The notes beneath the pieces are model-generated. The model was given only the letters and a program-made list of their open reading frames with translations. It ran no database searches and was not told where the DNA came from. From Pelomonas sp. Root1217 (GTDB lineage: Bacteria > Pseudomonadota > Gammaproteobacteria > Burkholderiales > Burkholderiaceae_C), in NCBI RefSeq assembly GCF_001425705.1, contig NZ_LMDC01000012.1, forward strand, positions 1,024,772 to 1,088,771: a stretch of DNA of 64,000 bases, in the 5' to 3' direction. Numbering within the stretch: the first letter of the stretch is position 1; the number at the start of each line of letters is the position of its first letter. Below are positions 40,861 to 59,360 of this stretch, piece by piece. Both the position numbers and the translations under genes were made by a program.

Positions 40861-40865
40861 GAGGT

Positions 40866-41543: not shown

Positions 41544-41613
41544 GGCAGACCTCCGGTTTGAAAGAACACGGGCAGGGTACGTAGGCAAGACACCAAATAA
41601 AAGCAGAGAATCG

Positions 41614-41628
41614 CGAAGCATTGCTTCG
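41614..41628. promoter_or_regulatory. CGAAGCA-T-TGCTTCG palindrome
   Basis: A 15-bp dyad 20 bp upstream of the nhaR start, in the region shared with the divergent BI-1 gene. LysR-family proteins usually bind dyads of this size near their own promoter, so this may be the NhaR autoregulatory site. Confidence 0.4.
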
Positions 41629-41648
41629 GGATAACTTGCTGATTTGCC

Positions 41649-42533: not shown

Positions 42534-42551
42534 TAGGCTCGCTTGCTACAG

Positions 42552-42567
42552 TTGACGTTTACGTCAA
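42552..42567. promoter_or_regulatory. TTGACGTTTACGTCAA operator-like site
   Basis: A 16-bp near-palindrome 48 bp upstream of the isovaleryl-CoA dehydrogenase gene. It differs by one central base from the site at icmF. A good -10 box 19 bp from the TTGACG is not apparent here, so the exact promoter is unclear. Confidence 0.55.
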
Positions 42568-42614
42568 TCAAGAGGGCTCGGCCGCCTTGAAGCCGGGCTG
42601 ACAGGAGACTCCCC

Positions 42615-43793: not shown

Positions 43794-43818
43794 AACGCCA
43801 GCCCGCGACAATGACCGC

Positions 43819-44496
43819 ATGACGACCGCGACCAACCACGAACTGCAGGACCTGCTCGACAACAACAAGCGCTGGGCCGCCGACACCGAGGCCCGCGAGC
43901 CGGGCTTCTTCTCCAGCCTGCTCAAGCAGCAAACGCCGCAATACCTTTGGATAGGCTGCGCCGACAGCCGCGTGCCGGCCAATGAGCTGGTGGACTTGCT
44001 GCCGGGCGAACTGTTCGTGCATCGCAACGTCGCCAACGTCGTCGTGCACTCGGACCTGAACTGCCTGTCCGTCATGCAGTTCGCGGTGGACCAGCTCAAG
44101 GTGCGCCACATCATCGTCGTCGGCCACAGCAATTGCGGCGGCGTGCGCGCGGCGCTCTACGACATCCGCACCGGTCTGGCCGACAACTGGATCCGCCACG
44201 TGCAGGACGTGCGCAACGACCACCTGGCTTGGCTGGACAGCCTGCCCGAGGCCAAGCGCGTCGATGCGCTGTGCGAGCTGAATGTGCTGGAGCAGGCGCG
44301 CAATGCCTGCCAGACGACGGTGGTGCAGGACGCCTGGCAGCGCGGCCAGGAGATCGTCGTGCATGGCTGGGTTTACGGCCTGCACAACGGCCTGCTGGAG
44401 GACCTGCAGCTCACGGCCACCAGGGCCGAGGATGTGGAGCCGTCCTACCGCCGCGCGCTGGAACGCGTCAAGGCGCGCTACGCCACAGTGGCCTGA
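43819..44496 (+). CDS. can: beta-class carbonic anhydrase
   Basis: A 225-residue enzyme interconverting CO2 and bicarbonate. Zinc ligands are Cys47 (GCADSR), His103 and Cys106 (GHSNCGGV), and the catalytic dyad Asp49-Arg51 is present. FVHRNVANVV and VKVRHIIVVG-type segments match the Can/YadF group. The start was set at MTTATNHELQDLL, 26 bases after the isovaleryl-CoA dehydrogenase stop. It is followed by aceK 13 bases after its stop, so these genes may be cotranscribed. Confidence 0.93.
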   Translation: MTTATNHELQDLLDNNKRWAADTEAREPGFFSSLLKQQTPQYLWIGCADSRVPANELVDLLPGELFVHRNVANVVVHSDLNCLSVMQFAVDQLKVRHIIVVGHSNCGGVRAALYDIRTGLADNWIRHVQDVRNDHLAWLDSLPEAKRVDALCELNVLEQARNACQTTVVQDAWQRGQEIVVHGWVYGLHNGLLEDLQLTATRAEDVEPSYRRALERVKARYATVA

Positions 44497-44509
44497 ATAG
44501 AGTCGGGGC

Positions 44510-46273
44510 ATGTTCCCGACCCAGCTCACGGACTCGCGCGCCTTCGACATCGCCCAGGCCCTGCTGGGTGGTTTCGATCGCCACTACAAGCTCTTCCGCG
44601 CGACGTCCGCCGAGGCCAAGGCCCGTTTCGAGCGCGGCGACTGGGCCGGCCAGCAGCGCGCCCAGGCGCTGCGCATTGAGTTCTACGACGCCCGCGTCGC
44701 GGAGGCCACCGAGCTGCTCGAGCAGCGCTTTGCCGCGTCAACGCTGCGGATGGACGTCTGGCAGCAGGTCAAGCTGCACTACATCGGCCTGCTGACCAAC
44801 CACCACCAGCCCGAACTGGCCGAGACCTTCTTCAACTCGGTGTGCACGCGCATCCTGCACCACGCCTATTTCCACAACGACTTCATCTTCGTGCGTCCGG
44901 CCATCTCGACCGAGTACATCGAGAACGACGAGCCCGGAGCGACCCCGACCTACCGCGCCTACTATCCGGCGCCGGACAAGCTGCGCGAAACCCTCCAGCG
45001 CGTCATCACCAACTTCCAGCTGGACGGCGAGTTCGCCCACCTCGATGCCGACGTCGACCGGGTGCTGGCCGCCGTCGCGCGGCGCCTCGGCGAGTTCCGC
45101 TGGCGCGCTAACTTCCAGCTGCAGGTGCTGTCCAGCCTGTTCTACCGGAACAAGGGCGCCTATGTCGTTGGCAAGATCATCAACGGTTTTACCGAGACGC
45201 CGTTTGCCCTGCCCATCCTGCGTGACGACGACAGCGGGCGCTTCTTCATCGACGCGGCGCTGTTCGGCGAAGACGATCTGCTGATCCTGTTCAGCTTCGC
45301 CCGCGCTTACTTCCTCGTCGACATGGAGGTGCCGAGTGCGTACGTGCAGTTCCTGCGCTCCATGATGCCGAGGAAACCCCGCTCCGAGATCTATTCGGCG
45401 CTGGGCCTGCAGAAGCAGGGCAAGAACCTTTTCTACCGCGACTTCCTGTACCACCTGCGCCATTCATCGGACAAGTTCCGCATCGCGCCTGGCATCAAGG
45501 GCATGGTCATGCTGGTGTTCGACCTGCCGAGCTGGCCCTTCGTCTTCAAGGTCATCAAGGACTTCTACCCACCGCAGAAGGACACCACGCGCGAGCTGAT
45601 CCAGAGCAAATACCTGCTGGTGAAGAGCCACGATCGCGTGGGCCGCATGGCCGACACGCTGGAGTACACGCGGGTGGCCTTCCCGCGGCATCGCTTCGAG
45701 GAAGAGCTCCTCGATGAGTTGAAGCACTTCTGCGGGAGCCTCATTGAAGAGAACGGCGACGACCTCGTCATCCGCCACCTCTATATCGAGCGCCGCATGG
45801 TGCCGCTCAACATCTACCTGCAGGACGCCACGCCCGAACAGGTGGAGCGCGTCGTCATCGAGTATGGCAACGCCATCAAGGACCTGGTGGCGGCAAACAT
45901 CTTCCCGGGCGACATGCTATGGAAGAACTTCGGTGTGACCCGCCACGGCAAGGTCGTGTTCTACGACTACGACGAGATCGAGTACCTGACCGACTGCAAC
46001 TTCCGCCGCGTGCCCGAGCCGCGCAACGAGGAGGAAGAGATGTCAGGCGATGTCTGGTACAGCGTCGCGCCGCGCGACGTCTTCCCCGAGACTTTCGCGC
46101 CCTTCCTGCTCGGCAATCCGAAAGTGCGCGAGGCTTTCATGCGGCATCACGCGGACCTGCTGGACGCCGGCTTCTGGCAGGGCCACAAGGCCCGCATCCT
46201 GGCAGGGCATGTGCATGATGTGTTTCCCTATGACCAAGCGCGACAGTTCGCGCGGCACAAGTTTGTTTCGTGA
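44510..46273 (+). CDS. aceK: isocitrate dehydrogenase kinase/phosphatase
   Basis: A 587-residue bifunctional enzyme that phosphorylates and dephosphorylates isocitrate dehydrogenase, switching carbon between the TCA cycle and the glyoxylate bypass. Typical AceK segments are the N-terminal [12 protein letters not shown] loop [32 protein letters not shown] (near 325-355), and [41 protein letters not shown] (near 463-503). The C-terminus ends [12 protein letters not shown]. Two degenerate copies of parts of this gene lie downstream at 48738 and 54251. The left edge of the low-GC island begins just after its stop. Confidence 0.95.
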
Positions 46274-46335
46274 CCGGCACACCCGCGGAGACCCATTGGC
46301 GCGGCCCGCACGAGGCGGCGCGTAGAACAGCCCTG

Positions 46336-47058
46336 TCATTTGACTGCTCCGTTTCCATTGGGGCAGGCCTCCGCGGACAGGATTCTCTCGATACTATCGA
46401 GCCCGGCTTGGGAATCATCGCCGGGGTTGATGTGATACCACTTGCCCTTGGCTGCGTGTAGTTTTCCGCCGCGCACCTCCAGGCTTTCTCCCTGGCTGAC
46501 GTAGTCCGCGAAGCGATCGCTGATGGCGATTCGCCGAAGCATGAGCAAATAGGTTCTGCCGTCGTCGAAGCTAGTGCCGTGCGTATTCCAGACCCGGAGC
46601 AATTCACCCTGATCAAAAACTTCGCCTCCCTGGCGTAGAACGTTGACGGCTTTTTCCGGATCGAACGATGCATTCCCTTTCAGTTTTCTAGTGATGGTGA
46701 ACGGGGTTTTGGTAATGATGTCGGCCTTGTCCGCCGTCAGGGCGGAAACAGGGATTCCCGCTTTCGCGACGACAACTCCGTCGACACCGCAGACGTCATC
46801 GTGCAGATATTGCTCATCCAGGTTTTTGAACGAATTGCGCTTTTCGCCGGACCTGATCGGGTGCGCCACCAGGGCCATCGAGCGCCCGCGCACTCCATCC
46901 GGAAACTTGTCGGCTTCGTGAAGGTTCTGCCTCTTGAAGACGCGAATGCCGAAGTAGTTGGAGGCCCAGGCCAACTCGCTTTCGTCCCAGACTGCATCCG
47001 CAGCCGCAAGTGCGGAACTCGTGGCTAGAACCAGTATTGCAATTAAATTCATTTTCAT
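46336..47058 (-). CDS. secreted family protein, divergent member
   Basis: A 240-residue protein with a signal peptide (MKMNLIAILVLATSSALAAADA). It shares spaced motifs with the three paralogues upstream: FPDGVRG, a C...G segment near residue 90, GGEVFDQGELLRVWNT, DGRTYLLML, and a late cysteine. Similarity is low elsewhere, so it is the outlier of the family. Its start lies 28 bases after the stop of the neighbouring paralogue and the two probably share a transcript. Function is unknown. The start was set at ATG AAA ATG; a TTG further upstream is possible. Confidence 0.65.
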   Translation of the reverse strand: MKMNLIAILVLATSSALAAADAVWDESELAWASNYFGIRVFKRQNLHEADKFPDGVRGRSMALVAHPIRSGEKRNSFKNLDEQYLHDDVCGVDGVVVAKAGIPVSALTADKADIITKTPFTITRKLKGNASFDPEKAVNVLRQGGEVFDQGELLRVWNTHGTSFDDGRTYLLMLRRIAISDRFADYVSQGESLEVRGGKLHAAKGKWYHINPGDDSQAGLDSIERILSAEACPNGNGAVK

Positions 47059-47086
47059 GGAACCGCTGAGCAAATAGTCGCTCTCT

Positions 47087-47779
47087 TCATTCGCACCCTT
47101 TCTGTTCCAGGGATTCCTGGACCATGGCCTTTGCCCGAGTCAGAGTCGTGCCGGGCTTGAACGGCGACCAACCAGGTGCGGGATAGATGGTCCCATTTGA
47201 AATCTCTAGCAGATACGGAGTTCCCACAAAGATCTTCTTGTTCTTGTCATTCGCAGAGTGCATGATCATCAGATAGTGGCGCCCCTTGACATAGGCTGCC
47301 TGAGGATTGCCGAGACGAATGATTTCTCCCCTGTATTCGACCTCCCCACCTTCGACGAGAAGGTCGAAGGATTGCACCTTCGACCCAGGCTGCACGCTCC
47401 AGCTATCAACAAGCTTGAAACGCAGCTTCGTGAAAATGCCGATCTCATCTTTTCCGATGAAAGATCTGGAATTTTGAAGCTCAGCTACGCCAAATACGGC
47501 ATAGCGGCAAGCGTATGAATGCAACGCTTCTTGGACGGGGTCCTGTATTTCACCTGGCAGCACAGGCGGCTCTGGAACTGACGAATAGGTAGTCCCGCGA
47601 ACGCCATCGGGATGCCTGCCCTGGAAGAACCTGTCCAGTTTCAGTTTCCTGGATCTGGGGAGCAACGGTGCTGTTATATCTTGGTCATTGTAATCAACGG
47701 TTAACGGCTCATCGGCTGCTATCACTGAGGTGGCAGCCATCGTCAACAGCACGGCGATTAACGATCTTCTTTGGAACAT
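47087..47779 (-). CDS. secreted family protein, paralogue A
   Basis: A 230-residue protein beginning MFQRRSLIAVLLTMAATSVIAADE, a signal peptide. Family motifs: RHPDGVRGTTYSS, YACRYAVFGVAELQNSRSFIGKDEIGIFTKLRFKLVDSW, GGEVEYRGEIIRLGNPQAAYVKGRHYLMIMHS, and the terminal LEQKGCE. It is very close to the member at 51594 and less so to the one at 47946. The start was matched to its paralogue; an ATG four codons earlier is in frame. The conserved Cys pair and secretion suggest a folded periplasmic or extracellular protein. No known family is recognised. Confidence 0.72.
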   Translation of the reverse strand: MFQRRSLIAVLLTMAATSVIAADEPLTVDYNDQDITAPLLPRSRKLKLDRFFQGRHPDGVRGTTYSSVPEPPVLPGEIQDPVQEALHSYACRYAVFGVAELQNSRSFIGKDEIGIFTKLRFKLVDSWSVQPGSKVQSFDLLVEGGEVEYRGEIIRLGNPQAAYVKGRHYLMIMHSANDKNKKIFVGTPYLLEISNGTIYPAPGWSPFKPGTTLTRAKAMVQESLEQKGCE

Positions 47780-47884
47780 AGTTCGAACCATCTTTTGGTG
47801 ATGATGTCGACTGCAGCGCCTTCAGATGAGCAGGGGTGCGATCGAACAGATGAGAGTGTTTAGCGGATCACAGGGCTTAAGCCT
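47780..47884 (-). repeat. shared upstream region, copy 1
   Basis: About 105 bp before paralogue A that align with the regions before the paralogues at 47946 and 51594. Common blocks on the plus strand include TTGGTGATGATGTC, GCGGATCACAGG-like sequence and a conserved CAGNTGAG. It probably carries the promoter of each cassette. Confidence 0.6.
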
Positions 47885-47945
47885 GAACGACGCTGCTAAC
47901 GACTGAGCTTCGTGCGGTGACTAGAAAGCCACTTTGCAGGCTTTT

Positions 47946-48617
47946 TCATTCGCACCCCTTCTGTTCCAAGGCTTCTTGAGCCGATGCTTTAACCCTGCTT
48001 AGACTCATTCCATCAAATGGCGTCGCGCTATACGGTGCTCGGATGATTCCATTTGAAACCTCAAGCAGACGTGGAAGCTCGACAAAATAGTTTTTCTCGG
48101 CGTTCTCCGTATCGCCTTGAATGATCATCAGGTATCGACGGCCCTTGACGTAACTGGTAAGAGGATCGCCTAGACGGAACATCTCCCCCTTGTGCATCAC
48201 CTCCCCGCCTGGAATGATCAGGTCGAAGAATTGGTCCTTCGGGATTGAACCCGCCTTCCAGTTATCGACAATCTTGAAGCGCAACTTGGTGAGAATCCCA
48301 ATCTCATTCTTTCCAACGAACGATTTGGCACCCTGGAGATCGGCCACGCCAAATATGGCATAACTGCACGCGTAATGACGCAGAGTTTCTAGCCCGTGGT
48401 ACATCATAGGCTCCGGAGGGTGGGAGTAAGTAAATCCTCGCGCGCCGTCGGGATGCCTGCTTTGGTGATTGCTCAGTTTAAGATCTGGATCCCCGCCATA
48501 AAATTTCACTGCATTTTCTCGATCCCTGTCGTCAATAGTCAAATCCGAATCGGATGCATTAACTGAGGCGCCCGTCGCCAGCAACAGTACGGCGATTAAC
48601 AATCTTCTCTTGGACAT
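47946..48617 (-). CDS. secreted family protein, paralogue B
   Basis: A 223-residue protein with a signal peptide (MSKRRLLIAVLLLATGASVNAS). It keeps RHPDGARGFTYSHPPEP, YACSYAIFGVADLQGAKSFVGKNEIGILTKLRFKIVDNW, GGEVMHKGEMFRLGDPLTSYVKGRRYLMI and a terminal LEQKGCE. It is shorter than paralogues A and C around residue 40. It lies upstream of paralogue A on the same strand but has its own copy of the shared upstream region, so it can be transcribed independently. Function unknown. Confidence 0.72.
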   Translation of the reverse strand: MSKRRLLIAVLLLATGASVNASDSDLTIDDRDRENAVKFYGGDPDLKLSNHQSRHPDGARGFTYSHPPEPMMYHGLETLRHYACSYAIFGVADLQGAKSFVGKNEIGILTKLRFKIVDNWKAGSIPKDQFFDLIIPGGEVMHKGEMFRLGDPLTSYVKGRRYLMIIQGDTENAEKNYFVELPRLLEVSNGIIRAPYSATPFDGMSLSRVKASAQEALEQKGCE

Positions 48618-48737
48618 GGTTCAATCCATCTCTTGGTGACAATGTCAACTGCACTGCCCTCAGCTGGGACAGGGGCGTGGTCGAAGAGCTGAGAAGTGTT
48701 TGGCGGATCACAGGGGGGGGCAGCCTCTGCCGAGCTA
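48618..48737 (-). repeat. shared upstream region, copy 2, with G8 tract
   Basis: About 120 bp homologous to copies 1 and 3. It abuts the aceK 3' fragment directly. A run of eight G (48713-48720) replaces the GGG or GGGG found at the same place in the other copies. With the aceK fragment it fills most of the 407-bp stretch without an intact gene before the GH5 gene. Confidence 0.6.
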
Positions 48738-48863
48738 CTCCTGTCGGGGCACGTGCACGATGCATTTCCCTATGACCGAGCGCGACAGTCCGAGAGGCAG
48801 AGGTTGTTTCGTGACCGGCACACCCGCCGAGACCAATTGGCGCGGACCGCACGAGGCCGTGCG
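48738..48863 (+). pseudogene. aceK: degenerate copy of the aceK 3' end
   Basis: Matches the last ~25 codons of the intact aceK and about 50 bp beyond its stop, at roughly 85% identity by eye. Recognisable residues are GHVHDAFPYDRARQ. A one-base deletion near the end shifts the frame past the original stop. The copy cannot make a product and marks an old duplication or recombination endpoint. The remaining bases to 49024 show nothing recognisable. Confidence 0.8.
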
Positions 48864-49024
48864 AACGTCATAAGCGCAGCGCTTGGCAACACCCACGCCA
48901 AAACTACCTGGGTCCGAATGACGCCCCGCTGCCGCTAGCTATTGCGTGGATGCTGTGTCCGCCATCGTCGCAGCCGATCAGTCCTGCAAGCAGCAGGCTT
49001 GCGAGGGGCTTATGCAGCCCTTCC

Positions 49025-50263
49025 TTAGCGCTTGCCTGCGCCAGTTAATAGGGCGTCGAGCTCGGTTTGGTCGCGGACAGTATTGTTGCTCCGGTCAAAG
49101 ACGCCTGAACCGTCATCCCAGTAAAACGGGACCAATCCATTTTCCAATGCCCGCTGGGTAACATACTTCAGGTAATACTTGCGCGATGCTTGATGCAATT
49201 TTAGCGACTCGCCGGTCAGGTTGCGGCGCCGAATGGCCGTATATTCACCCAGGATCACCGGAATTTCGTTATATATAAATTTCTGTTTAACCCGGGTAAA
49301 CAGCTCGTTAACGGCGGCCTCCTCGCCCCAGAGGGAATTGTGCTCGGAGTCGGTGCTTGAGCGGAAATTGCTCCCCCAGTAATAGGCTGGCTTACCCCAG
49401 GCTTCATCGCGCGTCATCAAGACGAAGTTATAGGGCGTATAGAAGTGCATCTCGGCCATGAGCTTATTGCCGACGGTATCCTTCGGAAGCGTCCACCAGT
49501 TCACTGATTTTTCGACATCCGCAGCTGGCCCTTGCACGACCAGTACGCGGTGGCTGTTCTTGCCGCCGGTCGCGCGCACCGCATCGATAAACGTCTGATG
49601 ATAGGAATTCAGGACATCCACCTGCTCTTCCGTGCTTACATTCGGCTCGTTGGCGCTGGCAAATAGGAGGTGTTCGTCGAAGTCGCGCAGATGCGTGGCA
49701 ATCTGCTCCCATAGCGCGCGTTGTTTCGCGTTGGTGGCTGCCTGCTTGTCGGCCGTGACATTACGTTCCAGCCAACCGCCGTCCCAGTGAGTATTGACGA
49801 TCACATAGAGGTTGTTATCCACGCAATACTTGACGACCTGCTTGACACGATCCAACCAGGCCGCGTCGATTTTCGCCGTCTTCTGATTCGCGTGTTGGTT
49901 CCAGGACACCGGAATGCGGACCGCATCGAAGCCGCTGGCGCGCACCAGGCGGATCAGTTCTGGGCTGACCTTCGGGTTGAACCAACCCGTTTCGCCGCCT
50001 AGAGATTCCAGGGAATTGCCGAGGTTCCAGCCCAACCTTATACGGCTGGCAATCTGGACCGCGGTGCTAGTCATGCCGATATCATCGGCGGCGATAGGAT
50101 TCAGGTTGTAGCTGGGAAAAATTCCCACATTCTGCGCCGGTGCCGGCGTCGTGGCCGGATGCAGAGTGGGCGTCGGTACGGTGCTGGCGGCAATGGCGCT
50201 TCCGCTGCTACAAGCGGCGACGAAAGCAAGGCTCGCCAATAGGAATAGGGCGCGGCATTCCAT
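49025..50263 (-). CDS. GH5 family glycoside hydrolase (lipoprotein)
   Basis: A 412-residue exported enzyme. The lipobox FVAAC (Cys18) is followed by a Thr/Pro-rich linker to about residue 45. The GH5 barrel has LGWNLGNSLE, VRIPVSWNQH, VIVNTHWDGGW, acid/base Glu206 in ASANEPN, HFYTPYNF, and nucleophile Glu340 in VILGEYTA. GH5 enzymes hydrolyse beta-linked polysaccharides such as cellulose or mannan; the substrate is not decidable here. A GTG three codons upstream is an alternative start. Its lower GC content fits recent acquisition with the island. Confidence 0.88.
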   Translation of the reverse strand: MECRALFLLASLAFVAACSSGSAIAASTVPTPTLHPATTPAPAQNVGIFPSYNLNPIAADDIGMTSTAVQIASRIRLGWNLGNSLESLGGETGWFNPKVSPELIRLVRASGFDAVRIPVSWNQHANQKTAKIDAAWLDRVKQVVKYCVDNNLYVIVNTHWDGGWLERNVTADKQAATNAKQRALWEQIATHLRDFDEHLLFASANEPNVSTEEQVDVLNSYHQTFIDAVRATGGKNSHRVLVVQGPAADVEKSVNWWTLPKDTVGNKLMAEMHFYTPYNFVLMTRDEAWGKPAYYWGSNFRSSTDSEHNSLWGEEAAVNELFTRVKQKFIYNEIPVILGEYTAIRRRNLTGESLKLHQASRKYYLKYVTQRALENGLVPFYWDDGSGVFDRSNNTVRDQTELDALLTGAGKR

Positions 50264-50366
50264 TGTTTTCACTTCTACACATTCATACTGTATTGATTAC
50301 GCCGGTCCGCCGGCTTGGCCGGCGCACTCATTGTCCTGGAGCAGCGAGTGCGATTGTGGGTAGAGG

Positions 50367-50849
50367 TCAGTTGCCAGGGGAGCCTTGGGAATTGAGGCGG
50401 GCACGTCGCTTTAGCAGCCGTTCGATTTGAATGGGAAACGCCTTTCTTGCCGAATCGCTATCTTCACGCTTGCCCATCAAAACGTATGTCACCAACGAAT
50501 TGCCGACACTCGCATTGCACGTCGCGAAATTCCATTCGCCGGCCGACTTTTCGGAGCAAGTAGGTTGGAGCGCCTGGACACCCGATGGCATCGCTGCAAT
50601 CGACACGGACAGGGATGGTGAATGTGCGTTTTTTGGCGGGGTAAAGGTGCAGACGTCCACGTTCCTTCGTGGTGCGCCGCTCGTACCGACTTCTTTCGAA
50701 CTGACCAACTTCATTGAGTGTTGGTTGAGTTGGAGCGCTTTGAGTACCTCTTGGTCCACGAAATCGCACGGCGCGCCGGCAGATTGAGCAAAAGCCAATG
50801 GCGGGGCAAGGCATGCAGCCAGAAGTAGCGCTAGAAAATTCCGAAACAT
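50367..50849 (-). CDS. secreted hypothetical protein (160 aa)
   Basis: A signal peptide (LALLLAACLAPPLAFAQ) is followed by a domain with four cysteines (PCDFVDQE, DVCTFTPP, PTCSEKS, ATCNAS). The order of helix LNQHSMKLVSSKE then strands recalls small periplasmic proteins that bind ligands, but no family is assigned. A GC-rich hairpin follows its stop near 50308-50324 and may end its transcript. Confidence 0.65.
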   Translation of the reverse strand: MFRNFLALLLAACLAPPLAFAQSAGAPCDFVDQEVLKALQLNQHSMKLVSSKEVGTSGAPRRNVDVCTFTPPKNAHSPSLSVSIAAMPSGVQALQPTCSEKSAGEWNFATCNASVGNSLVTYVLMGKREDSDSARKAFPIQIERLLKRRARLNSQGSPGN

Positions 50850-50907
50850 GTTTATCCTTTGAGGCGATTGAAAAACGTGGTGAAAACGTTGCGGAGGAAC
50901 CCTTCCA

Positions 50908-51597
50908 TTACCTTAAACAAACGGGCGGCCTAGGGGGGAGTGGGAGGGGATCGCCGCGCAGGCCTGGCAATTTGTCAACGATGCAACCGACTCCCCAAGC
51001 CTGATTTCCAGAACTATTGACACCCTGAAAATCAGACATAATGTTCAAACTGCCCGTTTTCGAATCACTTGCCCCCAACGCATGCAGCAACTCGTGAACC
51101 ACTGAACGATACATCGCATCGTTATATCCAGGCATTTGCGGGTTGAAGCAGAGGCTAATTGCCTCTTTGCTACATCCATCTTGGCCCAAGAAAACTTTGA
51201 CTTCGGCAGAATCCAGAAATCCATTTACTGGCGGACTGCTCTCAATAACTGCCGTTCGGTTATTGGTTGGGGATTTTGTATTCGGAAATGATATATTTAT
51301 ATTTGGACGATCTATATCATACTCCGTTACTAACTGGAAGTTTATGCCAGCGACCTGGCCGGTCAGCAAAGAGATAGCGCGGGTGACTGCATCCTTCACA
51401 TCGGCACCCACGACGTCATTTCCATTTGCATCTTTTGTGTTGGGTTTAATGACAATATCCACCGTAGCGTTGGCCTTAATTTTAGGTACGCCTGCGTTTA
51501 AACCGACGCCATCACATTCGGTCGCGCTAGCGCTGCCAATCGAGAAACCCGCTGACACGATCAGTATGGCGCTTTTAATAAGCGTCTGGCCGCTCAT
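50908..51597 (-). CDS. secreted metzincin-like zinc protease
   Basis: A 229-residue protein with a signal peptide (LIKSAILIVSAGFSIGSASA). The zinc signature HELLHALGASD spans residues 168-178: His168, Glu169, His172 and Asp178 in the place of the third His, as in snapalysin-type metzincins. A Met-turn candidate follows at NIMSD (Met187). Two cysteine pairs (GCSKEAISLC and GCIVDKLPGL with Cys28) may form disulfides. Start and previous stop overlap as ATGA with secreted paralogue C, so the two are translationally coupled. The protease substrate is unknown. A longer frame upstream overlaps the paralogue and is not coding. Confidence 0.75.
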   Translation of the reverse strand: MSGQTLIKSAILIVSAGFSIGSASATECDGVGLNAGVPKIKANATVDIVIKPNTKDANGNDVVGADVKDAVTRAISLLTGQVAGINFQLVTEYDIDRPNINISFPNTKSPTNNRTAVIESSPPVNGFLDSAEVKVFLGQDGCSKEAISLCFNPQMPGYNDAMYRSVVHELLHALGASDSKTGSLNIMSDFQGVNSSGNQAWGVGCIVDKLPGLRGDPLPLPPRPPVCLR

Positions 51598-52298
51598 TTG
51601 CACCCCTCCTGTTCCAGGGACTCCTGAACCATGGCCTTCGCACGCGTTACAGTCGTGCCGGACTCGAACGGCGACCAACCAGGGGCGGCGGGATAGATAG
51701 TCTCGTTTGAAATCTCGAGAAGATACGGAGTACCGGCAAAGATCCTCCTGTTCTTGTCGGTAGCAGAGTGCATGATCATCAGATAGTGGCGACCCTTCAC
51801 GTAGGCTGCCTGGGGATTACCTAGACGAATGATTTCCCCCTTGTATTGGACCTCTCCACCTTGAACTAGTAGCTCGAAGGATTGCACTTTCGACGCGGGC
51901 TGCACGCTCCAACTATCAACAAGTTTGAAATGCAGCTTCGTAAAAATACCAATCTCGTCTTTCCCGATGAATGATTTTGAATTCTGAAGCTCGGCTATGC
52001 CAAATACAGCATAACGACAAGCGAAGCGTTGCAACGCTTCCAGGGTAGGATCCATTTCACCCGATACCGGAAGTGCCTCCGGAAATGAAAAATATGTAGA
52101 TCCAAGAACGCCATCGGGATGCTTGCTGTCCCGCAGCTTGTCAAGCTTTAGGCTCTGCCTCATTCTTTTCGATTCGGGGAGCAACGACGCTGCTATGCTT
52201 TGGTCGCCATCATCGATGGTTAAGGCCTCATCGGCCGCTATAACGGAGGCGGCTGCCATCATCAACAGCGCGGCGATTAACGATCTTTTCTGAAACAT
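51594..52298 (-). CDS. secreted family protein, paralogue C
   Basis: A 234-residue protein starting MFQKRSLIAALLMMAAASVIAADE. It is nearly parallel to paralogue A through the whole length: KHPDGVLGSTYFS, FACRYAVFGIAELQNSKSFIGKDEIGIFTKLHFKLVDSW, GGEVQYKGEIIRLGNPQAAYVKGRHYLMIMHSATDKN and LEQEGCK. Unlike A and B it is coupled to a downstream gene, the metzincin-like protease. This pairing suggests a functional link, such as inhibitor and protease or a secretion partner, which is not proven. Confidence 0.72.
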   Translation of the reverse strand: MFQKRSLIAALLMMAAASVIAADEALTIDDGDQSIAASLLPESKRMRQSLKLDKLRDSKHPDGVLGSTYFSFPEALPVSGEMDPTLEALQRFACRYAVFGIAELQNSKSFIGKDEIGIFTKLHFKLVDSWSVQPASKVQSFELLVQGGEVQYKGEIIRLGNPQAAYVKGRHYLMIMHSATDKNRRIFAGTPYLLEISNETIYPAAPGWSPFESGTTVTRAKAMVQESLEQEGCK

Positions 52299-52418
52299 AG
52301 TTCAATCCATCTCTTGGTGATGATGTCGGCCGCACCGCCTTCAGCTGAACAGCGGCGCGGTCAAACAGGTGAGAAATGTTTAGCGGAGCACAGGGGCTTC
52401 AGCCTCTGCCGGCTACTC
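52299..52418 (-). repeat. shared upstream region, copy 3
   Basis: About 120 bp homologous to copies 1 and 2, ending in GCCTCTGCC-GCTACTC like copy 2. Its far end overlaps the stop codon of the next gene upstream, showing that a unit of gene plus promoter was inserted or duplicated here. Confidence 0.6.
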
Positions 52419-53144
52419 GACGGCGGCATCAAGCTCGGGTTCTGGTATTTCGCCGGCAATCTTGCAGAACCACTTGGCCCCGGCGGCCGGAATACAGTCG
52501 TCATACGGCTTCGGCGCCGGGCACATCCAGCCGCTGATCTGCCATTTGCATCCCTCCTCGGGTGGATCACCAGGAGTGCGCGGGTCATAGACAGTCATGC
52601 GTCCGGTGTATGGCGCGTCAACATGCGTAAGCGCCTCGATCATGCCCTGCAGTTTGACCACCGCAGGGACATATTGCCGGTTGATTTCATTCTCGGCGTT
52701 GATCAGTAACGCATGCCCGGCGGCTGCGGCGCCTCTACCCACCACGGCAATACGAGTTTTTCCCGACAGGGAATACTTCATGCGCAGGTCAGCATACGCG
52801 GCCGGGAATGGCTCGGAGTTAATTTTGGTGCAGGCGACCCTCGGAGAGTTGACGACAACGGCGCACACAAAAATCTCATATTTCGACCGCGCCACCCAAC
52901 TGGCACGCGCATCCTTGATAATCGGTGCCGGGTAAATGCCCTCCACATTGCCGATGTATTTTGGCATCTCGACTGTGAAGCAAAGGCCCTCTGGGTCATC
53001 GCAGATGGCAGCCAGCTGCCCGCCTTGCCACTTCATTTTCGGCGTTGAGGTTTCAGCTGCATAAACGTTGCTGACGCCAGCAAATAAGATAAAGGGCGCC
53101 GCCAAAGTTCGGATTGCCATTTTAAATTGACTGATTTGCCACAT
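52413..53144 (-). CDS. secreted hypothetical protein (243 aa)
   Basis: A signal peptide (MAIRTLAAPFILFAGVSNVYAA) lies after an alternative eight-residue N-terminal extension. The mature part has cysteine pairs (ICDDPEGLCF, FVCAVVVNSPRVAC) and a C-terminal cluster (EGCKWQISGWMCPAPKPYDDCIPAAGAKWFCK), so a disulfide-rich exported protein is likely. No family is recognised. The stop codon falls inside shared upstream region copy 3. Start uncertain between 53144 and 53120. Confidence 0.62.
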   Translation of the reverse strand: MWQISQFKMAIRTLAAPFILFAGVSNVYAAETSTPKMKWQGGQLAAICDDPEGLCFTVEMPKYIGNVEGIYPAPIIKDARASWVARSKYEIFVCAVVVNSPRVACTKINSEPFPAAYADLRMKYSLSGKTRIAVVGRGAAAAGHALLINAENEINRQYVPAVVKLQGMIEALTHVDAPYTGRMTVYDPRTPGDPPEEGCKWQISGWMCPAPKPYDDCIPAAGAKWFCKIAGEIPEPELDAAVE

Positions 53145-53288
53145 TGATCTAGTCCGGTAGTGAAATTATCGAGATCGACATTGGAATTCGGCTTCCAGCG
53201 ATACCCTTGCATGAAAAGGGCTGGTGGCTCACATACCCGCGTGCAGAGACGATGGGTGGACAGTGGCAAGCCAAACTAGTAATGCGCC

Positions 53289-53807
53289 TTAGAGGAGACG
53301 TTCTACTCGGGCGGCAATGGTGCTTGCACTCGTTATGGTCGCCCAGGCGCCATGCGAATCAAGTCTTTGTGAAGCCGTATCGGGCAGACTCATACCCGGC
53401 CGAGGCAAATTGTCAGTCTGGTTGGCAAACGTGGGCAGCGACATTGAATTAAAGCCGCAAGACCCGCCACCGCCACCGCCTCCACCACCGCCCCCTCCTG
53501 AACAATGGCTTGTGCAACCTGCCATAGCGGAACTAGCGGCAGTTTCACCCGCTTGGGAAGCCGCACTCGCCATACTGGCGAGGCAACCAGCTTCGGCACC
53601 CGAGTATTGGGCGTATTGGGAACAGACGCTATACGCCTGTGCCATGATGCTATTTATGGTCTCCTGCCTAACTGAATTTGCGAGGCTGGCGCACGCGTCC
53701 AGACAGCCTTGGTCTTGAGCGTGGGCAACAGTGGAAGATGCCATCATGAGCGTCAGTACAAGCGCAGAGACGGCAGAATTTTGGATAGTTTTACGAAAAA
53801 TTTTCAC
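53289..53807 (-). CDS. secreted Cys- and Gly-rich protein with poly-Gly tract
   Basis: A 172-residue protein with a GTG start and signal peptide (SAVSALVLTLMMASSTVAHAQ). A helical, cysteine-containing part follows (GCLDACASLANSV, YSVCSQYAQYSGAEAGCLASMASAASQAG, GCTSHC), then 12 consecutive glycines and a final C-containing segment, with a C-terminal region rich in Ser, Ala and Thr. The glycine codons form a GGT/GGC-type repeat that could change length in frame. It is not similar to the neighbouring secreted family. Function unknown. Confidence 0.62.
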   Translation of the reverse strand: MKIFRKTIQNSAVSALVLTLMMASSTVAHAQDQGCLDACASLANSVRQETINSIMAQAYSVCSQYAQYSGAEAGCLASMASAASQAGETAASSAMAGCTSHCSGGGGGGGGGGGGSCGFNSMSLPTFANQTDNLPRPGMSLPDTASQRLDSHGAWATITSASTIAARVERLL

Positions 53808-54250
53808 AAAGGTGGTCCTGATAAAAATTAAAGGAAGGTCACTAGCTCAAAATTCGACGCGCGGGAGGCGAGTCACTTTTGGGAACGCTTAAATGCCTGA
53901 ATATTCGATGAATCTCTCCGTTTTCCGGAATTGCCCCTAGGGTCGGCCAGCGGGCAGCGTGCGATCCATAGCCCCAATTGGGCGCACGTGAGGCGATTGG
54001 TCATGCCACATTGGGTGCTTGAGGCGCGTGGTCATGCCACTTTACCGATTCAGTGCAGTTGTGGGCTTAGGGCTAACGATTTGTGAATATTGCCCAACAG
54101 GGTCAGACCGGCAGGCGGAGTGCGGGTCAGGGGCGCAGTTCGGGGCATCGGAGTCGAAGGACTTCTTGCGCCACCCTGCCTGCACCTCGGCGGCCGTGAC
54201 CTGCCGCAGCGCCGACACGGACTTGCTTGCCGAGGCTGTCGATCGGCAGG
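53808..54250. other. non-coding stretch at right end of island
   Basis: No supported gene. The AT-rich bases just after 53807 include TAATTTTTATC on the minus strand, a possible -10 region for the poly-Gly gene. Two imperfect ~25-bp direct repeats lie at 53990-54044. The remainder is GC-rich and leads into the aceK fragment. Confidence 0.5.
53990..54044. repeat. two imperfect direct repeats
   Basis: GAGGCGATTGGTCATGCCAC at 53990 and GAGGCGCGTGGTCATGCCAC at 54021 are related 20-mers 31 bp apart. They sit at the transition from low-GC to high-GC sequence. Their role is unknown. Confidence 0.55.
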
Positions 54251-54406
54251 CCCGAGCAGTTGGAGGGCGTCGTCGTCGAGTACGGCAACGCGATCACGGA
54301 CCTGGTGGCTGCCAACATCTTTCCCGGCGACATGCTGTGGAAGAACTTCGGCATCACTCGTGAGGACCGCCGCCACGGCAAGGTCGTGCTTTACGCCGCT
54401 GCCTGA
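54251..54406 (+). pseudogene. aceK: internal fragment of aceK
   Basis: The reading frame [20 protein letters not shown], then [17 protein letters not shown] and HGKVVLY, matches aceK residues about 442-485. A three-residue insertion (EDR) precedes HGKVV. Similarity ends before the DYDEIEY segment, and a stop follows five codons later. No start codon or upstream part is present. It differs at many third positions from the intact aceK, so it is either an old copy or came from a related species. Confidence 0.8.
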
Positions 54407-54492
54407 GCCGAAGCGGCTCCGTCCGACAGGCGCGGCCCCCTCGCCAACCAACAATGGCGCAGCCGCAACTCGTGGCCGCTGGGAGCCCCTGC

Positions 54493-55077
54493 ATGATCTT
54501 CGACGCCATCCGCGAAAGCCACGACCTGCAACGCGATCTGTGCCGCAAGCTCACCGCGTCGCGCGGCGACACGGCCGCGCGCCAGTTGCTGTTCCTGCAG
54601 TTGAAGGTCGAGCTGATGGCACACGCGGCGGCCGAAGAGCGCTTCCTCTACGTGCCGCTGCTGATGGAGGATGGAGGCCTTGATGCCTCGCGGCATGCGC
54701 TGCATGAGCACCACCAGGTGGACGAACTGCTCGAAGACCTGTCCGTGCGCGACAAGCAACAGGACGGCTGGATCGCAACCGCCAAGCAGCTCAGTTTCAA
54801 GGTGCGCCACCACCTGAAGGAGGAGGAATCGAAGTTCTTCCACGTCGCCGGCCGCCTGCTGTCAGACACGAAGAAGCAGCAACTCGCCGGCAAGTACACA
54901 CGCGAGATCGTGCGCATGCGCAAGCATTACGCCGCCGAGTACCAGACCGTGGCGGTGTCAGCAGCGACTGGCTTGGTCAAGCCCGCCAAGCCCGCTGCCG
55001 ACAAGCCGGCGACGCACGGCAACGCCAGCGCCGGCGCCCAGCTGCGCGGCAAGAGCAAGCCGCGGCGCACGCGCTGA
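54493..55077 (+). CDS. hemerythrin domain protein
   Basis: A 194-residue protein with the HHE cation-binding four-helix pattern: RESHDLQRDLCRKL, LMAHAAAEERFLYVPLL, ALHEHHQVDELLEDL and VRHHLKEEESKFFHVAG. The His and Glu residues are placed to hold a di-iron site. Roles include oxygen or nitric oxide sensing and iron handling. The C-terminal ~40 residues are Lys/Ala/Pro-rich and basic (KPAKPAADKPATHG then KSKPRRTR). GGGAG lies eight bases before the chosen ATG. It is the first intact gene after the island. Confidence 0.85.
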   Translation: MIFDAIRESHDLQRDLCRKLTASRGDTAARQLLFLQLKVELMAHAAAEERFLYVPLLMEDGGLDASRHALHEHHQVDELLEDLSVRDKQQDGWIATAKQLSFKVRHHLKEEESKFFHVAGRLLSDTKKQQLAGKYTREIVRMRKHYAAEYQTVAVSAATGLVKPAKPAADKPATHGNASAGAQLRGKSKPRRTR

Positions 55078-55128
55078 TGTGAACGCCCCTCGTCCGGTCT
55101 CGCCACGCTGAACGCGGGCAAGCCCAGT

Positions 55129-55146
55129 CGGTCCCCCGCGGGGACG
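55129..55146. repeat. GC-rich palindrome, copy 2
   Basis: The same 18-mer as at 20282-20299, in reverse orientation, located about 50 bp after the hemerythrin stop. Two identical copies 35 kb apart in intergenic DNA suggest a dispersed palindromic element, possibly used as a terminator. Confidence 0.5.
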
Positions 55147-55246
55147 CGGCCGCTCACGGCATCGAGCCGCGAGCGGGCTCAGGCGGGCCGGCTTGGGGCG
55201 GCCCGGCGCTGGGCCCGAAGTACGAACGCGGAGTCGCCGCGGTGCT

Positions 55247-55615
55247 TCAGCCCTGCGTCGGCCTGAACACCCGCACCCGGTGGCCGTCCGGGTCCGCCGT
55301 CACGGCCGTGTAGCCGAAATCCAGTGCCGTCGGCGCCTGCAGCACCGGCCAGCCAGAGGCCTTCCAGGCGGCGACGGCGGCGTTGACTTCGTTGTCGGTG
55401 GCGACCGTGATGCCGATCTCGGCACCGCCGCCGCGCTGGCCGCTGCCCGGCTGCACGTCATGCGCGGCCCAGAGGCCGAGCATGGTCTTGTCATTGAGCA
55501 TGAACATCGCGAAGTTGGGGCTCTGCTCGACGGGTTCGCGGCCCAGCAGCGAGCGGTAGAAGAGCACGCTCTCGGCGGGGCTGTGCACGTAGAGGATGAG
55601 GCAGTCGGGTTGCAT
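55247..55615 (-). CDS. VOC family protein
   Basis: A 122-residue protein with the paired beta-alpha-beta-beta-beta layout of the vicinal oxygen chelate (glyoxalase/bleomycin resistance) superfamily: LILYVHSPAESVLFYRSLLGREPVEQSPNFAMFML and EIGITVATDNEVNAAVAAWKASGW...TAVTADPDGHRVRVF. The His and Glu of a metal site are not all evident, so it may be a binding protein rather than an enzyme. Substrate unknown. Confidence 0.85.
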   Translation of the reverse strand: MQPDCLILYVHSPAESVLFYRSLLGREPVEQSPNFAMFMLNDKTMLGLWAAHDVQPGSGQRGGGAEIGITVATDNEVNAAVAAWKASGWPVLQAPTALDFGYTAVTADPDGHRVRVFRPTQG

Positions 55616-55802
55616 GGCGGTCTCCGCTAGGTAGTGAATGAAGCCATCGTCGGCGCCGGTCGTGTCACCGGTTGTCAGCAGGCCCGGCGGCTATCCCGGC
55701 GGTAGTTTTCACATCGCGCTTGTGATCCCTGGCGGGGCGCACTTGCGTCCTTGATGACAGGCCCGGCGTGTTGCCGTGCCCCACCTCTATCGGAGAACCA
55801 TC

Positions 55803-56426
55803 ATGGCCGCATTGCCCGTCACCATCGCCCTGAAGAGCATCAAGTGCAAGATCGAGACCGACGAGGTCGGCTCGGACGAGCCCTATGTGCTCGTCACCGC
55901 CGTCGACCTGACCAACCCGATCCTGCCCAACGCCGAAGTCACGCTCTACGGCCCGTGGGGCGACGTCGACGAGGGCGAATCCCGCAGCACCCAGCCGCTG
56001 CAGCCGGGCATCAACCCGAGCGACATGCCCTTCATCATCTGGCGCCGCAATGCCTGGGGCCCGTCGGGCCAGGCCAAGGCCATCGCCAACCCGGCCAATG
56101 CCGTCATCCTCGTGTCGATGATGGAGCATGACGATGGCAAGCCCGGCACGGCGCGCGAACTGACCAAGGGCGCCGTCGTCAGCTCGCTGGCGGCCTCTGC
56201 CGGCATGACGCGGGCTCAGCGCGTGAGCAAGCTGAAGGCCGACATCCACGGCGCGCTCGGCATTCCCACCGGCTTCCCCAACTTCGACGACCGCGTCGGC
56301 ACGACCCAGGAGTTCGTGCTCAGCACCAACCTGCTAGACGTGGCGGCCGGCCCCAAGAGCAAGACGCTGACCATCGTGGGTGATGGCGGCAAGTACGAGG
56401 TCACCCTCGTGGTGACCAAGGGCTGA
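55803..56426 (+). CDS. hypothetical protein (207 aa)
   Basis: No recognised family. It starts MAALPVTIALKSIKCKIETDEVGSDEPYVLVTAVDL, a beta-rich pattern with an acidic DEVGSDEPY loop, followed by a middle with IIWRRNAWGPSGQAKAIANPANAVILVSMMEHDD. The C-terminus (SKTLTIVGDGGKYEVTLVVTKG) forms a likely beta-hairpin. There is no signal peptide. GGAG lies eight bases before the ATG. Tandem hairpins follow the stop, so it appears to be a single-gene transcript. Confidence 0.7.
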   Translation: MAALPVTIALKSIKCKIETDEVGSDEPYVLVTAVDLTNPILPNAEVTLYGPWGDVDEGESRSTQPLQPGINPSDMPFIIWRRNAWGPSGQAKAIANPANAVILVSMMEHDDGKPGTARELTKGAVVSSLAASAGMTRAQRVSKLKADIHGALGIPTGFPNFDDRVGTTQEFVLSTNLLDVAAGPKSKTLTIVGDGGKYEVTLVVTKG

Positions 56427-56437
56427 GACCCGACCGA

Positions 56438-56489
56438 GCACAGGGCCTGCGCCCTGTGCGACGCGGGCCTGCCGTACAAGGCGGCAGGC
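56438..56489 (+). terminator. two tandem hairpins
   Basis: GCACAGGGC/GCCCTGTGC with a CTGC loop (56438-56459) is followed by GCCTGCCG/CGGCAGGC (56467-56489). Both are perfect. No long T run follows. They lie between two convergent genes and probably end both transcripts. Confidence 0.55.
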
Positions 56490-56507
56490 ATATCGGCCCA
56501 CTGCTTG

Positions 56508-56804
56508 TTAACCGCCCGCCTTGACTGGCGCCTTCACCGCCGGGCAGGCGGTGTTGGCCGGGTCGGGACACTTCGGCAGCTTGGGTTTGACCTGGGTACC
56601 GGTATTGCTGCCATTGGTTGCGGCGCCACCACCGCTGCCACCGGCGACGGGCGCAGCGCCGCCGGGCGGGGTGGCAGCCTTCACCGCCGGTGAGCTGGCG
56701 GCCTTGGCCGCCGGGGTGCCCGTGGCCGGTGCCGCATCAGCGGCGTGCGCCGCGAGCGCGGCGCCCAGGCAGGCCGTGGCCAGTATCAATTCGAGAAGTT
56801 TCAT
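56508..56804 (-). CDS. small secreted Ala/Pro/Gly-rich protein
   Basis: A 98-residue protein with a signal peptide (LLELILATACLGAALAAHA). The mature part is low complexity (Ala, Pro, Gly, Lys) and ends with CPDPANTACPAVKAP, a possible disulfide loop. It follows the Ser/Thr kinase gene by 12 bases on the same strand, so it may belong to the sigma-kinase operon. Function unknown. Confidence 0.62.
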   Translation of the reverse strand: MKLLELILATACLGAALAAHAADAAPATGTPAAKAASSPAVKAATPPGGAAPVAGGSGGGAATNGSNTGTQVKPKLPKCPDPANTACPAVKAPVKAGG

Positions 56805-56816
56805 CGCAGTCCTCCG

Positions 56817-59360
56817 TCAGAAGTCCAGCAGGGCCAAGCCCAGCGGCGCCGGGTGGGATGTGGACGATAGCAATTGCGAAAACCGGGTGCGCACGGCCGC
56901 GGCGTCGGCACGGTCGGCCAGCGCACCAGCGTAGGCATCCAGCGCGTCGCGCGCGTCGCGGCCCTCTCCGAGCGCGACGAGCGCCCTCAGCCGCAGGCGG
57001 TCCGGATGGCCCGGCGGCAGGCCGGCCTCGGCCAGCGCCAGGGCTTCGTGATAGGCGGTGCGAGCCGGCTCGATGCGACCAGCGCTTTCGTGGGCCAGGC
57101 CCAGCAGCGCCAGCGTCGGCCAGCGATCGGTGTCCTGCAACCCCAGGCGCGTGCGCTGGGCGGCCTCGGCCTGCGTCAGCATCGCGACGGCCTCGGCCGT
57201 GCGCCCCTGACGTAGCGCCGCCTCGCCGAGCAGTGCGCGCGCGCGCTCCGCCGCCGGGTGGCCCGCCTCTTCCAGCGTGGACAGCAGGGGGCGCATCCGC
57301 TCTTCGGCGGCCGCCGGCTCGCCACGTCGCAATTGCTGGCGTGCCGCCACCAGCCCCACGACGGCGGTCGCCTGGGCTTCGCCGCCGCTGCGGGCCTGCG
57401 CCAACGCCAGCTCCGCTTCGCGCGCCGCCTCGTCGGGTCGGCCGGCGTGGAACAGCGCGGTGGACAGCCAGGTGCGCGTCGAGACGGTGTTGAGGTCAGC
57501 CGGCCCCAGCACTTCCTGCAGCTCCTGCACGCTGGCGCGCAGCAAGGGCAGGGCGGCGACGTGGTGGCCCAGTTCGACCTCCATCGTCGCGACGGCCATC
57601 CGGGCCTGGGCGGCGATCAGCCGCCCCGCGCCTTCGCTGGCATCGACGAGGGCTTGCAGCCAGTGCCGCGCGTCGTCCCAACGCCCCTGGGCCCGGGCGA
57701 GGCTGGACATCGCATCGGCCACGCGCCGATAGCGCTCGTGGCGCGTGCCGAAACGCTCGCGAACCCCTTGCTCGGCCCGCGCCAGCAGCGACTGCGCATC
57801 GTCGAGGCGGCCGGCCTCCGTCGCCATCTCGCCGAGATGGGCGAGGGCGGACAACGCCACCGCGTCGTCCTGCGCCGGCGCCGCAGGCACCAACCCCATC
57901 AGCAGCGCGCGCGCATCGTCGGTCTGGCCCAGGCGGCTGCGGGCATTGGCGAGCTCGAAGGCGACGTCGCGCCCCGTCTCGCCGCGGCCCTGCAGCTGGG
58001 CGTGTGCGAGCGACAGCGCTTCGGCCGCAAGCGGCATGTCGCCGGATTGGTTCAGCAGCAGGCCCAGTGGCCGAGCCACTTCGGCCAGCATGGCCGGGTC
58101 ATCGCCCAGCCGTCGCTTGGCTTCGGCCCAGCTGCGCCTGAGCAGCTCGAGCATCGGCACCGTCGCGCTACCGGAGGCATCGGGGCTGAGGCCGGCGAGC
58201 AGCTCGGTCAGCACGCTCTGCACACGCCGCGTGCGTTCGGCTTCGCGTGCGGCCTCGCGCCACTGCCAGGCGGTGGTGGCCATGCCGGCCAGCAGGCTGG
58301 CCAGCACCAGGCTGAGTGCGAGCAGCTGCAGCCGGTAGCGGCGCGCGAACTTGGCGCTTCGGTAGGCCAGCGAGTCGGGCCGCGCCAGGACGGGGCGATG
58401 CTCGAGATGGCGGCGCACGTCGTCGGCCAGGGCGCTGGCGCCGGCATAGCGCTCGTCGGGGCGCTCCTTCAGCGCGCGGCCGACGATGAGCGCAAGGTCG
58501 CCGCGCAGTGTGGCCCCTGGCTCGCGCTGGCCGGTCAGCAGCAGGCACAGCAGCCGCCCCAGAGCGAACACGTCGGTGGCCGTGCTGACGGGTTCGCCGC
58601 GCAACTGCTCCGGCGCGGCGTACTCGGGCGTCAGGCCGGCGGGCAGCTGCGCCGTCAGTTCTGCCCCCGCGTCGTCGGCGAGCAGCTTGGCGACGCCGAA
58701 ATCCAGCAGCTTCACATCGCCGTCCGCGGTGACAAGGATGTTGCCTGGCTTGAGATCGCGGTGCACGACCAGCCGCGCATGCGCATGGGCCACCGCGTCG
58801 CAGACCTGCAGGAAGAGCTGCAGCCGCGCCTCCAAATGGAGGTTTTGCAGCTCGCACCAGCGGTCGATGCGCTCGCCCTCCACCAGCTCCAGCACCAGGT
58901 AGCGCGTGCGCGTCGCGCCGACCAGGGCCTCGCCGATATCCAGCAGGCGGGCGATGTGTGGATGGGTCAACCGCGACAGCAGCTCGCCCTCGCGGCGAAA
59001 GCGCGCCTGGTTCCCCTCGCCGCGCCACGGGCTGTGCAGCAGCTTGATGGCCGCCTCGCCGCTGTGGGCACCATCGCTGCGCCGTGCGCGCCAGACCTCG
59101 CCCATGCCGCCGCTGCCCAGCGGTGCGACGAGGGTCCACGCGCCCAGCACCTGGCCGGCCAGTTCCGGTGCGTTCGGCAAATGGGCAGGCTCTTTCAGAA
59201 AGCCACCGGCTTCTGCGGCGCGGTCAGCGTTGATGAGCGCCTCCAGCCGCTCCCGTTGCGCCGACGGCAACTCGGCCAGCAAGGCTTCACGCTCGGCCGG
59301 CGTCGCGTCCTGCCATTCATCGAAGGCGGCGAGCGCGCCAGCCTGATAGGTCGTGTTCAC
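56817..59360 (-). CDS. serine/threonine protein kinase with TPR-like region
   Basis: An 847-residue membrane kinase. The kinase domain spans about 75-330: glycine loop LGSGGMGEVW, Lys106 in AAIKLL, catalytic HRDLKPGN (Asp202), DFG (220-222) and APEQ. One membrane segment lies at 344-364. The external or periplasmic part consists of TPR-like helical repeats with many conserved Ala/Leu positions (for example MLAEVARPLGLLLNQSGDMPLAAEALSLAHAQL). The ATG overlaps the ECF sigma gene stop by four bases. In other bacteria ECF-kinase pairs of this layout activate the sigma factor by phosphorylation. Confidence 0.9.
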   Translation of the reverse strand: MNTTYQAGALAAFDEWQDATPAEREALLAELPSAQRERLEALINADRAAEAGGFLKEPAHLPNAPELAGQVLGAWTLVAPLGSGGMGEVWRARRSDGAHSGEAAIKLLHSPWRGEGNQARFRREGELLSRLTHPHIARLLDIGEALVGATRTRYLVLELVEGERIDRWCELQNLHLEARLQLFLQVCDAVAHAHARLVVHRDLKPGNILVTADGDVKLLDFGVAKLLADDAGAELTAQLPAGLTPEYAAPEQLRGEPVSTATDVFALGRLLCLLLTGQREPGATLRGDLALIVGRALKERPDERYAGASALADDVRRHLEHRPVLARPDSLAYRSAKFARRYRLQLLALSLVLASLLAGMATTAWQWREAAREAERTRRVQSVLTELLAGLSPDASGSATVPMLELLRRSWAEAKRRLGDDPAMLAEVARPLGLLLNQSGDMPLAAEALSLAHAQLQGRGETGRDVAFELANARSRLGQTDDARALLMGLVPAAPAQDDAVALSALAHLGEMATEAGRLDDAQSLLARAEQGVRERFGTRHERYRRVADAMSSLARAQGRWDDARHWLQALVDASEGAGRLIAAQARMAVATMEVELGHHVAALPLLRASVQELQEVLGPADLNTVSTRTWLSTALFHAGRPDEAAREAELALAQARSGGEAQATAVVGLVAARQQLRRGEPAAAEERMRPLLSTLEEAGHPAAERARALLGEAALRQGRTAEAVAMLTQAEAAQRTRLGLQDTDRWPTLALLGLAHESAGRIEPARTAYHEALALAEAGLPPGHPDRLRLRALVALGEGRDARDALDAYAGALADRADAAAVRTRFSQLLSSTSHPAPLGLALLDF

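Follow-up and report, generated by a model that had tools for sequence, protein, structure and literature searches.

How did about 8 kb of DNA come to lie between two genes that are close neighbors in the nearest relative found, and why does it contain pieces of one of them? The locus in question belongs to a stretch of 64,000 nt (the window) from the 6.6-Mb genome of Pelomonas sp. Root1217, in which an intact aceK gene is followed by nine minus-strand genes, two scraps of aceK and a plus-strand hemerythrin gene, the last of which closes the block on the right (Table 1). By aceK, the nearest named relatives are Roseateles and Pelomonas, at 89–90%. An initial annotation, made from the sequence alone, suggested that the block was gained in more than one step by recombination through aceK-linked homology. 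This proposal is supported by the present analysis and appears largely right: the block is probably the product of two rounds of insertion, in each of which homology at the aceK 3' end held one side and the opposite side was closed by illegitimate joining. Such a mechanism is already known; in this case it would have operated twice and at a metabolic gene.

The Empty Site and the Changed Tail of aceK

Nineteen same-genus relatives were searched, of which 13 gave an aceK match. In five of the 13 (G012, G007, G004, G018, and G013), including the closest, the hemerythrin match starts 47–73 nt past the aceK stop, which is the arrangement that the initial annotation had predicted for relatives. The closest relative found is G012 (aceK 96% and hemerythrin 94% identical at the protein level), and its site is empty, consisting of aceK, 47 nt, and the hemerythrin gene. 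The alignment of G012 to the window falls into two main pieces, one covering aceK up to about 46256 and the other running from 54394 through the hemerythrin gene, the latter at 93% over 684 nt. Because this second piece begins in the last aceK codons, the block sits within the 3' end of aceK.

The aceK reading frame nevertheless stays open over 587 codons, despite a changed tail. In all 13 relatives, aceK ends in FPYDxxRR and a short tail, and the tail in the window departs from all of these; among 91 aceK sequences, the window's included, RQF or HKF in the tail is seen in the window only. Over 44510–45829, likelihood placement makes the window's aceK sister to that of G012, the next placement being 93.5 log-likelihood (lnL) units worse.

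Two Truncated aceK Scraps

A search of 46324–54453 with aceK (44510–46273) plus 50 nt of downstream DNA, controlled with the reversed sequence, gives two strong matches. The end of aceK with adjoining DNA (46197–46322, designated T) matches 48739–48863 (T') at 108 of 126 positions (E 8e-37), and codons ~440–488 match 54244–54395 (E 3e-36); all remaining matches, and all those in the reversed control, have E values of at least 0.5. Both scraps retain only the 3' side of aceK, and their starts differ, being equivalent to ~46197 and ~45830, respectively. There is no other strong copy of either repeat in the same genome; in one of the searches, which gave 35 matches, the third in rank spans 23 nt (E 0.003).

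The degenerate copy of the aceK 3' end with ~50 bp of downstream DNA, placed at 48738–48863 by the initial annotation, is therefore real. The internal fragment that it placed at 54251–54406 is real as well, but the scrap ends at ~54395, where it gives way to the native aceK 3' end and a hairpin, and the remnant of an M16-type peptidase gene lies to its left. The 12-nt insertion in this fragment (within 54340–54395) is not seen in the aceK of the relatives aligned.

Comparable aceK remnants are absent from 78 of 80 further loci tested, the other two (L025 and L066) having been left out with less than 100 nt of downstream DNA, and from the 13 genus relatives (for G013, only 682 nt downstream could be searched). 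Matches at E ≤ 1e-3 occur in 16 of the 78 loci, the longest being 81 nt at 70% and the strongest having E 3e-5, and matches at E ≤ 0.01 occur in 11 of the 13 relatives, the best at 1.3e-4 and none longer than 63 nt; these weak matches are read as background. The single match near an aceK 3' end, in L016, falls in a GC-repeat-like stretch. Conservation of the remnants across distant genera, which would have spoken against the initial proposal, is thus not seen in these samples. An assembly artefact is unlikely because the repeat copies diverge by ~13–14% and the contig is 1.14 Mb long.

Junctions and the M16 Peptidase Remnant

Both scraps begin at junctions with short stretches of common sequence. 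At 48739, DNA from upstream of a p-family gene passes into the aceK 3' end with ~2 bases common to both, and at 54248, the M16 remnant passes into aceK with GCCC common to both; both were read by eye in decayed sequence. The p3 upstream DNA before the first junction is homologous to that of p4 (48549–48740 versus 52230–52418, 78.6% identity). Two units can be recognized, each holding T-type DNA and p-family genes, and their divergence is broadly similar (18 of 126 positions between T and T', and 41 of 192 between the p3 and p4 upstream regions).

The M16 remnant (54148–54253) matches the M16 genes of G006, G004, G001, G018, G007, and G008 at 74–79% with indels (E 4e-16 to 5e-8), those of G006 and G004 giving the best values (78%, E 4e-16). 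In these six of the 13 relatives, the M16 gene is found downstream of aceK and is coded on the opposite strand, with its near end 73–2364 nt away; G013, with its 682 nt of downstream DNA, was left out of this judgement. No M16 match is found in the 12.9 kb downstream of aceK in G012, and the stretch from the glyoxalase gene to g55776 is 96.5% identical between G012 and the window over 1185 nt, without M16. Since G012 and the window share this M16-less arrangement while six relatives have the gene there, the remnant most likely arrived with foreign DNA.

Proposed Course of Events

In each round, incoming DNA of a related bacterium would pair with the chromosome through the aceK 3' region, aceK would be kept intact while taking on the donor's tail, and the non-homologous end of the incoming DNA would be joined illegitimately, at 2–4 common bases, inside the recipient's aceK; this is homology-facilitated illegitimate recombination (HFIR). 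Alternatively, the incoming DNA may first have closed to a circle via the donor's own aceK and then entered by a single crossover. Either route would push the old aceK end downstream as a 5'-truncated scrap. The first round may have brought the genes from GH5 to 53807 together with the M16-peptidase end, leaving the scrap at 54248–54395 and the native tail, and the second may have brought p1–p3, leaving the scrap at 48739–48863. A single scheme that pairs homology at one end with an illegitimate joint at the opposite end would account for an open aceK with a new tail, scraps that are 3' only, their differing starts, and joints of a few bases. As there are two scraps, two rounds are the simplest count.

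Origin of the aceK Fragment

The fragment at 54248 differs from the window's aceK at 16 of 110 positions, from that of G012 at 11, and from that of G007 at 9. In an equal-length comparison, G007 is nearest (124 of 136 identical), followed by G008 (123), G012 and the metagenome-assembled genome L070 from outside the genus set (122 each), and the window's aceK (118). A foreign origin is tentatively favored. A more distant donor, suggested by short blastn matches at 88–95% to Piscinibacter, Leptothrix, and Rubrivivax aceK, was dropped, as the equal-length comparison puts G007 and G008 nearest.

The initial annotation predicted that the fragments would group with another lineage. In likelihood placement of the fragment (136 nt, 65 placements; T' is too short to place), the G007 branch is best, but the branches of the window and G012 are 2.99 lnL worse and not rejected (P value of the approximately unbiased test, pAU, 0.30). 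A donor, perhaps a relative with its own aceK as the initial annotation put it, is independently indicated by the M16 remnant.

Weighing the Alternatives

Several observations weigh against two homology-anchored insertions, the first being that the 54248 fragment is not placed confidently outside the window's own lineage. Upstream of its tail, the intact aceK has no clear donor stretch, so that a donor contribution is visible only in the tail: positions 45966–46100 and 46101–46240 each place best with G012, weakly, and 45830–45965 prefers G005, also weakly. At the right-hand scrap, ~280 nt of aceK are absent just before the native 3' end at 54396, which is a possible crossover site, and the crossover is therefore not mappable. 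None of 299 family genomes, for each of which two candidates were scored, was found to have the T tail in full, and outside the own genome they gave only three short, weak matches. No donor genome with p genes was found either. A search of a plasmid collection with 45800–49100 gave ten matches, all of which fall within aceK and are either annotated as aceK or unannotated. Finally, a purely internal tandem duplication could yield the T/T' pair.

This last point leads to the main rival, which we regard as possible but rather unlikely: foreign DNA was inserted once (the right-hand unit), and a segment beginning inside the aceK 3' end and reaching to the DNA upstream of p4 was then duplicated internally in tandem, the left copy losing GH5 and its neighbors while keeping or multiplying the p genes. 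T' would then be the duplication joint, and it does join p-gene upstream DNA straight to aceK, as expected of such a joint; in addition, the p3 and p4 upstream regions are homologous up to the joint and p1–p4 are paralogues. However, this scenario requires the left copy to have lost GH5 and the following genes, of which no repeat was detected in 42000–58000, and p1, only 26% identical to p2, is unexplained by the same duplication.

An ancient tandem duplication of a native aceK–hemerythrin–M16 segment, filled later by unrelated genes and involving no foreign aceK, is very unlikely. The M16/aceK joint would fit if the duplicated segment ran from aceK codon ~440 into the M16 gene, and the placement, which does not reject the window's own lineage, would fit as well. 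Against this, G012 and the window both lack M16 here and have the closed arrangement in common; furthermore, of the eight sites among 110 that distinguish the window from G012, six carry the G012 base in the fragment, one the window base, and one neither (by eye), a weak argument, as these may be ancestral states.

Integrases often target the 3' end of a gene and change its tail, and a site-specific integrative element whose attachment (att) sites were T, T', and the right end would agree with the target and the tail found here. In keeping with the initial annotation, which saw no mobility gene, no integrase, transposase, recombinase, or phage family match lies above cut-off (Pfam and NCBIfam, 10 proteins each; PHROGs, 7 proteins), the sole trace being the 53289 protein against TrbC/VirB2 (E 0.25, 12 bits, cut-off 27.9). 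With neither such a family match nor a constant core—the scraps start ~370 bp apart in aceK, and T recurs only at 48739, the right end being formed by another part of aceK, so that no att repeat common to both block ends was found—this is the least probable of the explanations considered.

Cargo Genes and Genomic Setting

The low-GC block of nine minus-strand genes behind an intact aceK, almost all of them described as exported in the initial annotation, is confirmed. Its GC (guanine plus cytosine) content is 0.533 in 46323–48738 and 0.544 in 48864–54062, versus 0.664 and 0.708 in the flanks (38000–46232 and 54396–62000) and 67% in the window overall. The nine open reading frames (ORFs) occupy 46336–53807, and all nine have a signal-peptide-like N-terminus, as judged by eye.

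Table 1. Features of the aceK–hemerythrin interval, in order along the window.
Feature	Position	Strand	Remarks
aceK, intact, 587 aa	44510..46273	+	Sister to G012 over 44510–45829; aberrant 3' tail from ~46233
T, aceK 3' end plus ~50 nt downstream DNA	46197..46322	+	Reference copy of the repeat
p1, exported-looking, no known family	46336..47073	-	Distant p-family member; 26% to p2
p2, exported-looking, p family	47087..47791	-
p3, exported-looking, p family	47946..48617	-	52% to p2
p3 upstream DNA	48618..48738	-	Homologous to p4 upstream DNA up to the junction with T'
T', 5'-truncated remnant of aceK 3' end plus downstream DNA	48739..48863	+	108/126 identical to T; ~2 nt common with p3 upstream DNA
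GH5 glycosidase, cellulase/xyloglucanase type	49025..50272	-	235/366 residues identical (64%) to PDB Cel5D (5oyc)
Small exported-looking protein, no family	50367..50849	-	Own genome only, among 20 genus genomes
Exported-looking putative metalloprotease	50908..51597	-	HELLHALGASD (HExxHxxGxxD); weak Leishmanolysin match below cut-off
p4, exported-looking, p family	51594..52298	-	77% identical to p2; gene end overlapping with the 50908 gene start
Exported-looking protein, no family	52413..53144	-	Own genome only, among 20 genus genomes
Gly-rich exported-looking protein; no family match reaches cut-off	53289..53807	-
Decayed 3' remnant of M16-type peptidase gene	54063..54253	-	54148–54253 matched; trace on to 54063 weak at protein level (E 3.8)
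Internal aceK fragment, 5'-truncated, codons ~440–488	54248..54395	+	One 12-nt insertion; GCCC common with M16 remnant
Native aceK 3' end, stop, terminator-like hairpin	54396..54453	+	As in G012
Hemerythrin-domain gene	54454..55077	+	Adjoins aceK in 5/13 genus relatives

Across sets of 60, 399, and 398 genomes, which overlap and each include the own genome, the p family was seen in that genome only. No match to p1–p4 is found in Pfam or NCBIfam, nor to p1–p3 in PHROGs; a profile of p1–p4 matches no solved structure in the PDB (best E 0.41); 126 stretches of viral contigs fit a pattern, with no relative among them; and p2 has no match in plasmids. An AlphaFold model from the four paralogues was too poor to use (mean pLDDT, the predicted local distance difference test score, 40). 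Between p2 and p3, at 47920–47950, an inverted repeat with a T run (GCC...GGCTTTTT), seen by eye, is a possible terminator.

The GH5 protein matches the solved Cel5D of Cellvibrio japonicus. GH5 relatives are common, occurring in 16 of 20 genus genomes; the own genome gives 17 matches when this copy is counted. The block copy was probably gained from a distant source, because its 64% identity to Cel5D exceeds that to the other copies in the genomes sampled (at most 56% in those 20 genomes and 54% in the further sample of 398, with differing aligners). The 50908 protein, whose motif is metzincin-like, is found in its own genome only among the 299 family genomes and has no match in plasmids; the overlap of its gene start with the end of p4 suggests co-expression.

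In the relatives, the interval between aceK and the glyoxalase gene is empty (G009) or holds the hemerythrin gene with or without other genes, M16 peptidases (in G001 directly after aceK), or other ORFs. Its gene content differs between genus members (L003, L004, L005, and L116–L125), making it a general gene-turnover spot. In G012 (L116), an ORF of 279 aa, solute-binding-protein-like by eye, lies between the hemerythrin and glyoxalase genes and is lacking in the window.

Comparison with Known Systems

Overall, one locus appears to record two successive homology-anchored insertions, with an empty site, readable junctions, a remnant of a donor neighbor gene, a changed tail, and no mobile element seen. 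It illustrates how genes can be added to a genome behind a metabolic gene that is conserved and itself keeps an open reading frame. Going by titles, none of the papers found on aceK with genomic islands and insertions deals with such events.

Partial duplications from the uptake of short DNA are described for merodiploids of Streptococcus pneumoniae (PMC3784515). These are tandem duplications of ~100–900 kb between repeats, with no foreign cargo stacked behind a gene, unlike the case here.

A likeness is also offered by the orphan immunity-gene arrays of the Vibrio cholerae type VI secretion system (T6SS), where upstream-anchored serial insertions displace old 3' ends downstream as orphans (PMC5361080). 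The authors of that study propose an HFIR-like mechanism and point to a similar case, strings of orphaned 3' regions of Rhs. In those arrays, insertions are anchored at the effector locus and intact immunity genes are among the orphans; at aceK, a metabolic gene serves as the anchor and the scraps are dead. By analogy with this stacking, the aceK 3' end might be a place where related bacteria swap, time and again, sets of the diversifying exported p family beside a secreted metalloprotease, with the new set in front and the old kept behind; the p proteins may then be a stacked repertoire for defense or competition. We consider this extension improbable.

The two insertions proposed here resemble HFIR itself, in which incoming DNA is anchored by homology at one end and joined illegitimately at the opposite end; no mobile element is required, and circularization with a single crossover is named as a fate of linear DNA (PMC3240628). 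The events of that study are laboratory events with plasmids, whereas those at aceK are read from decayed natural junctions and apparently occurred twice at one locus. Features of HFIR that recur here are an open anchor gene at the homologous end, an illegitimate junction of a few bases, and a relative with an empty site.

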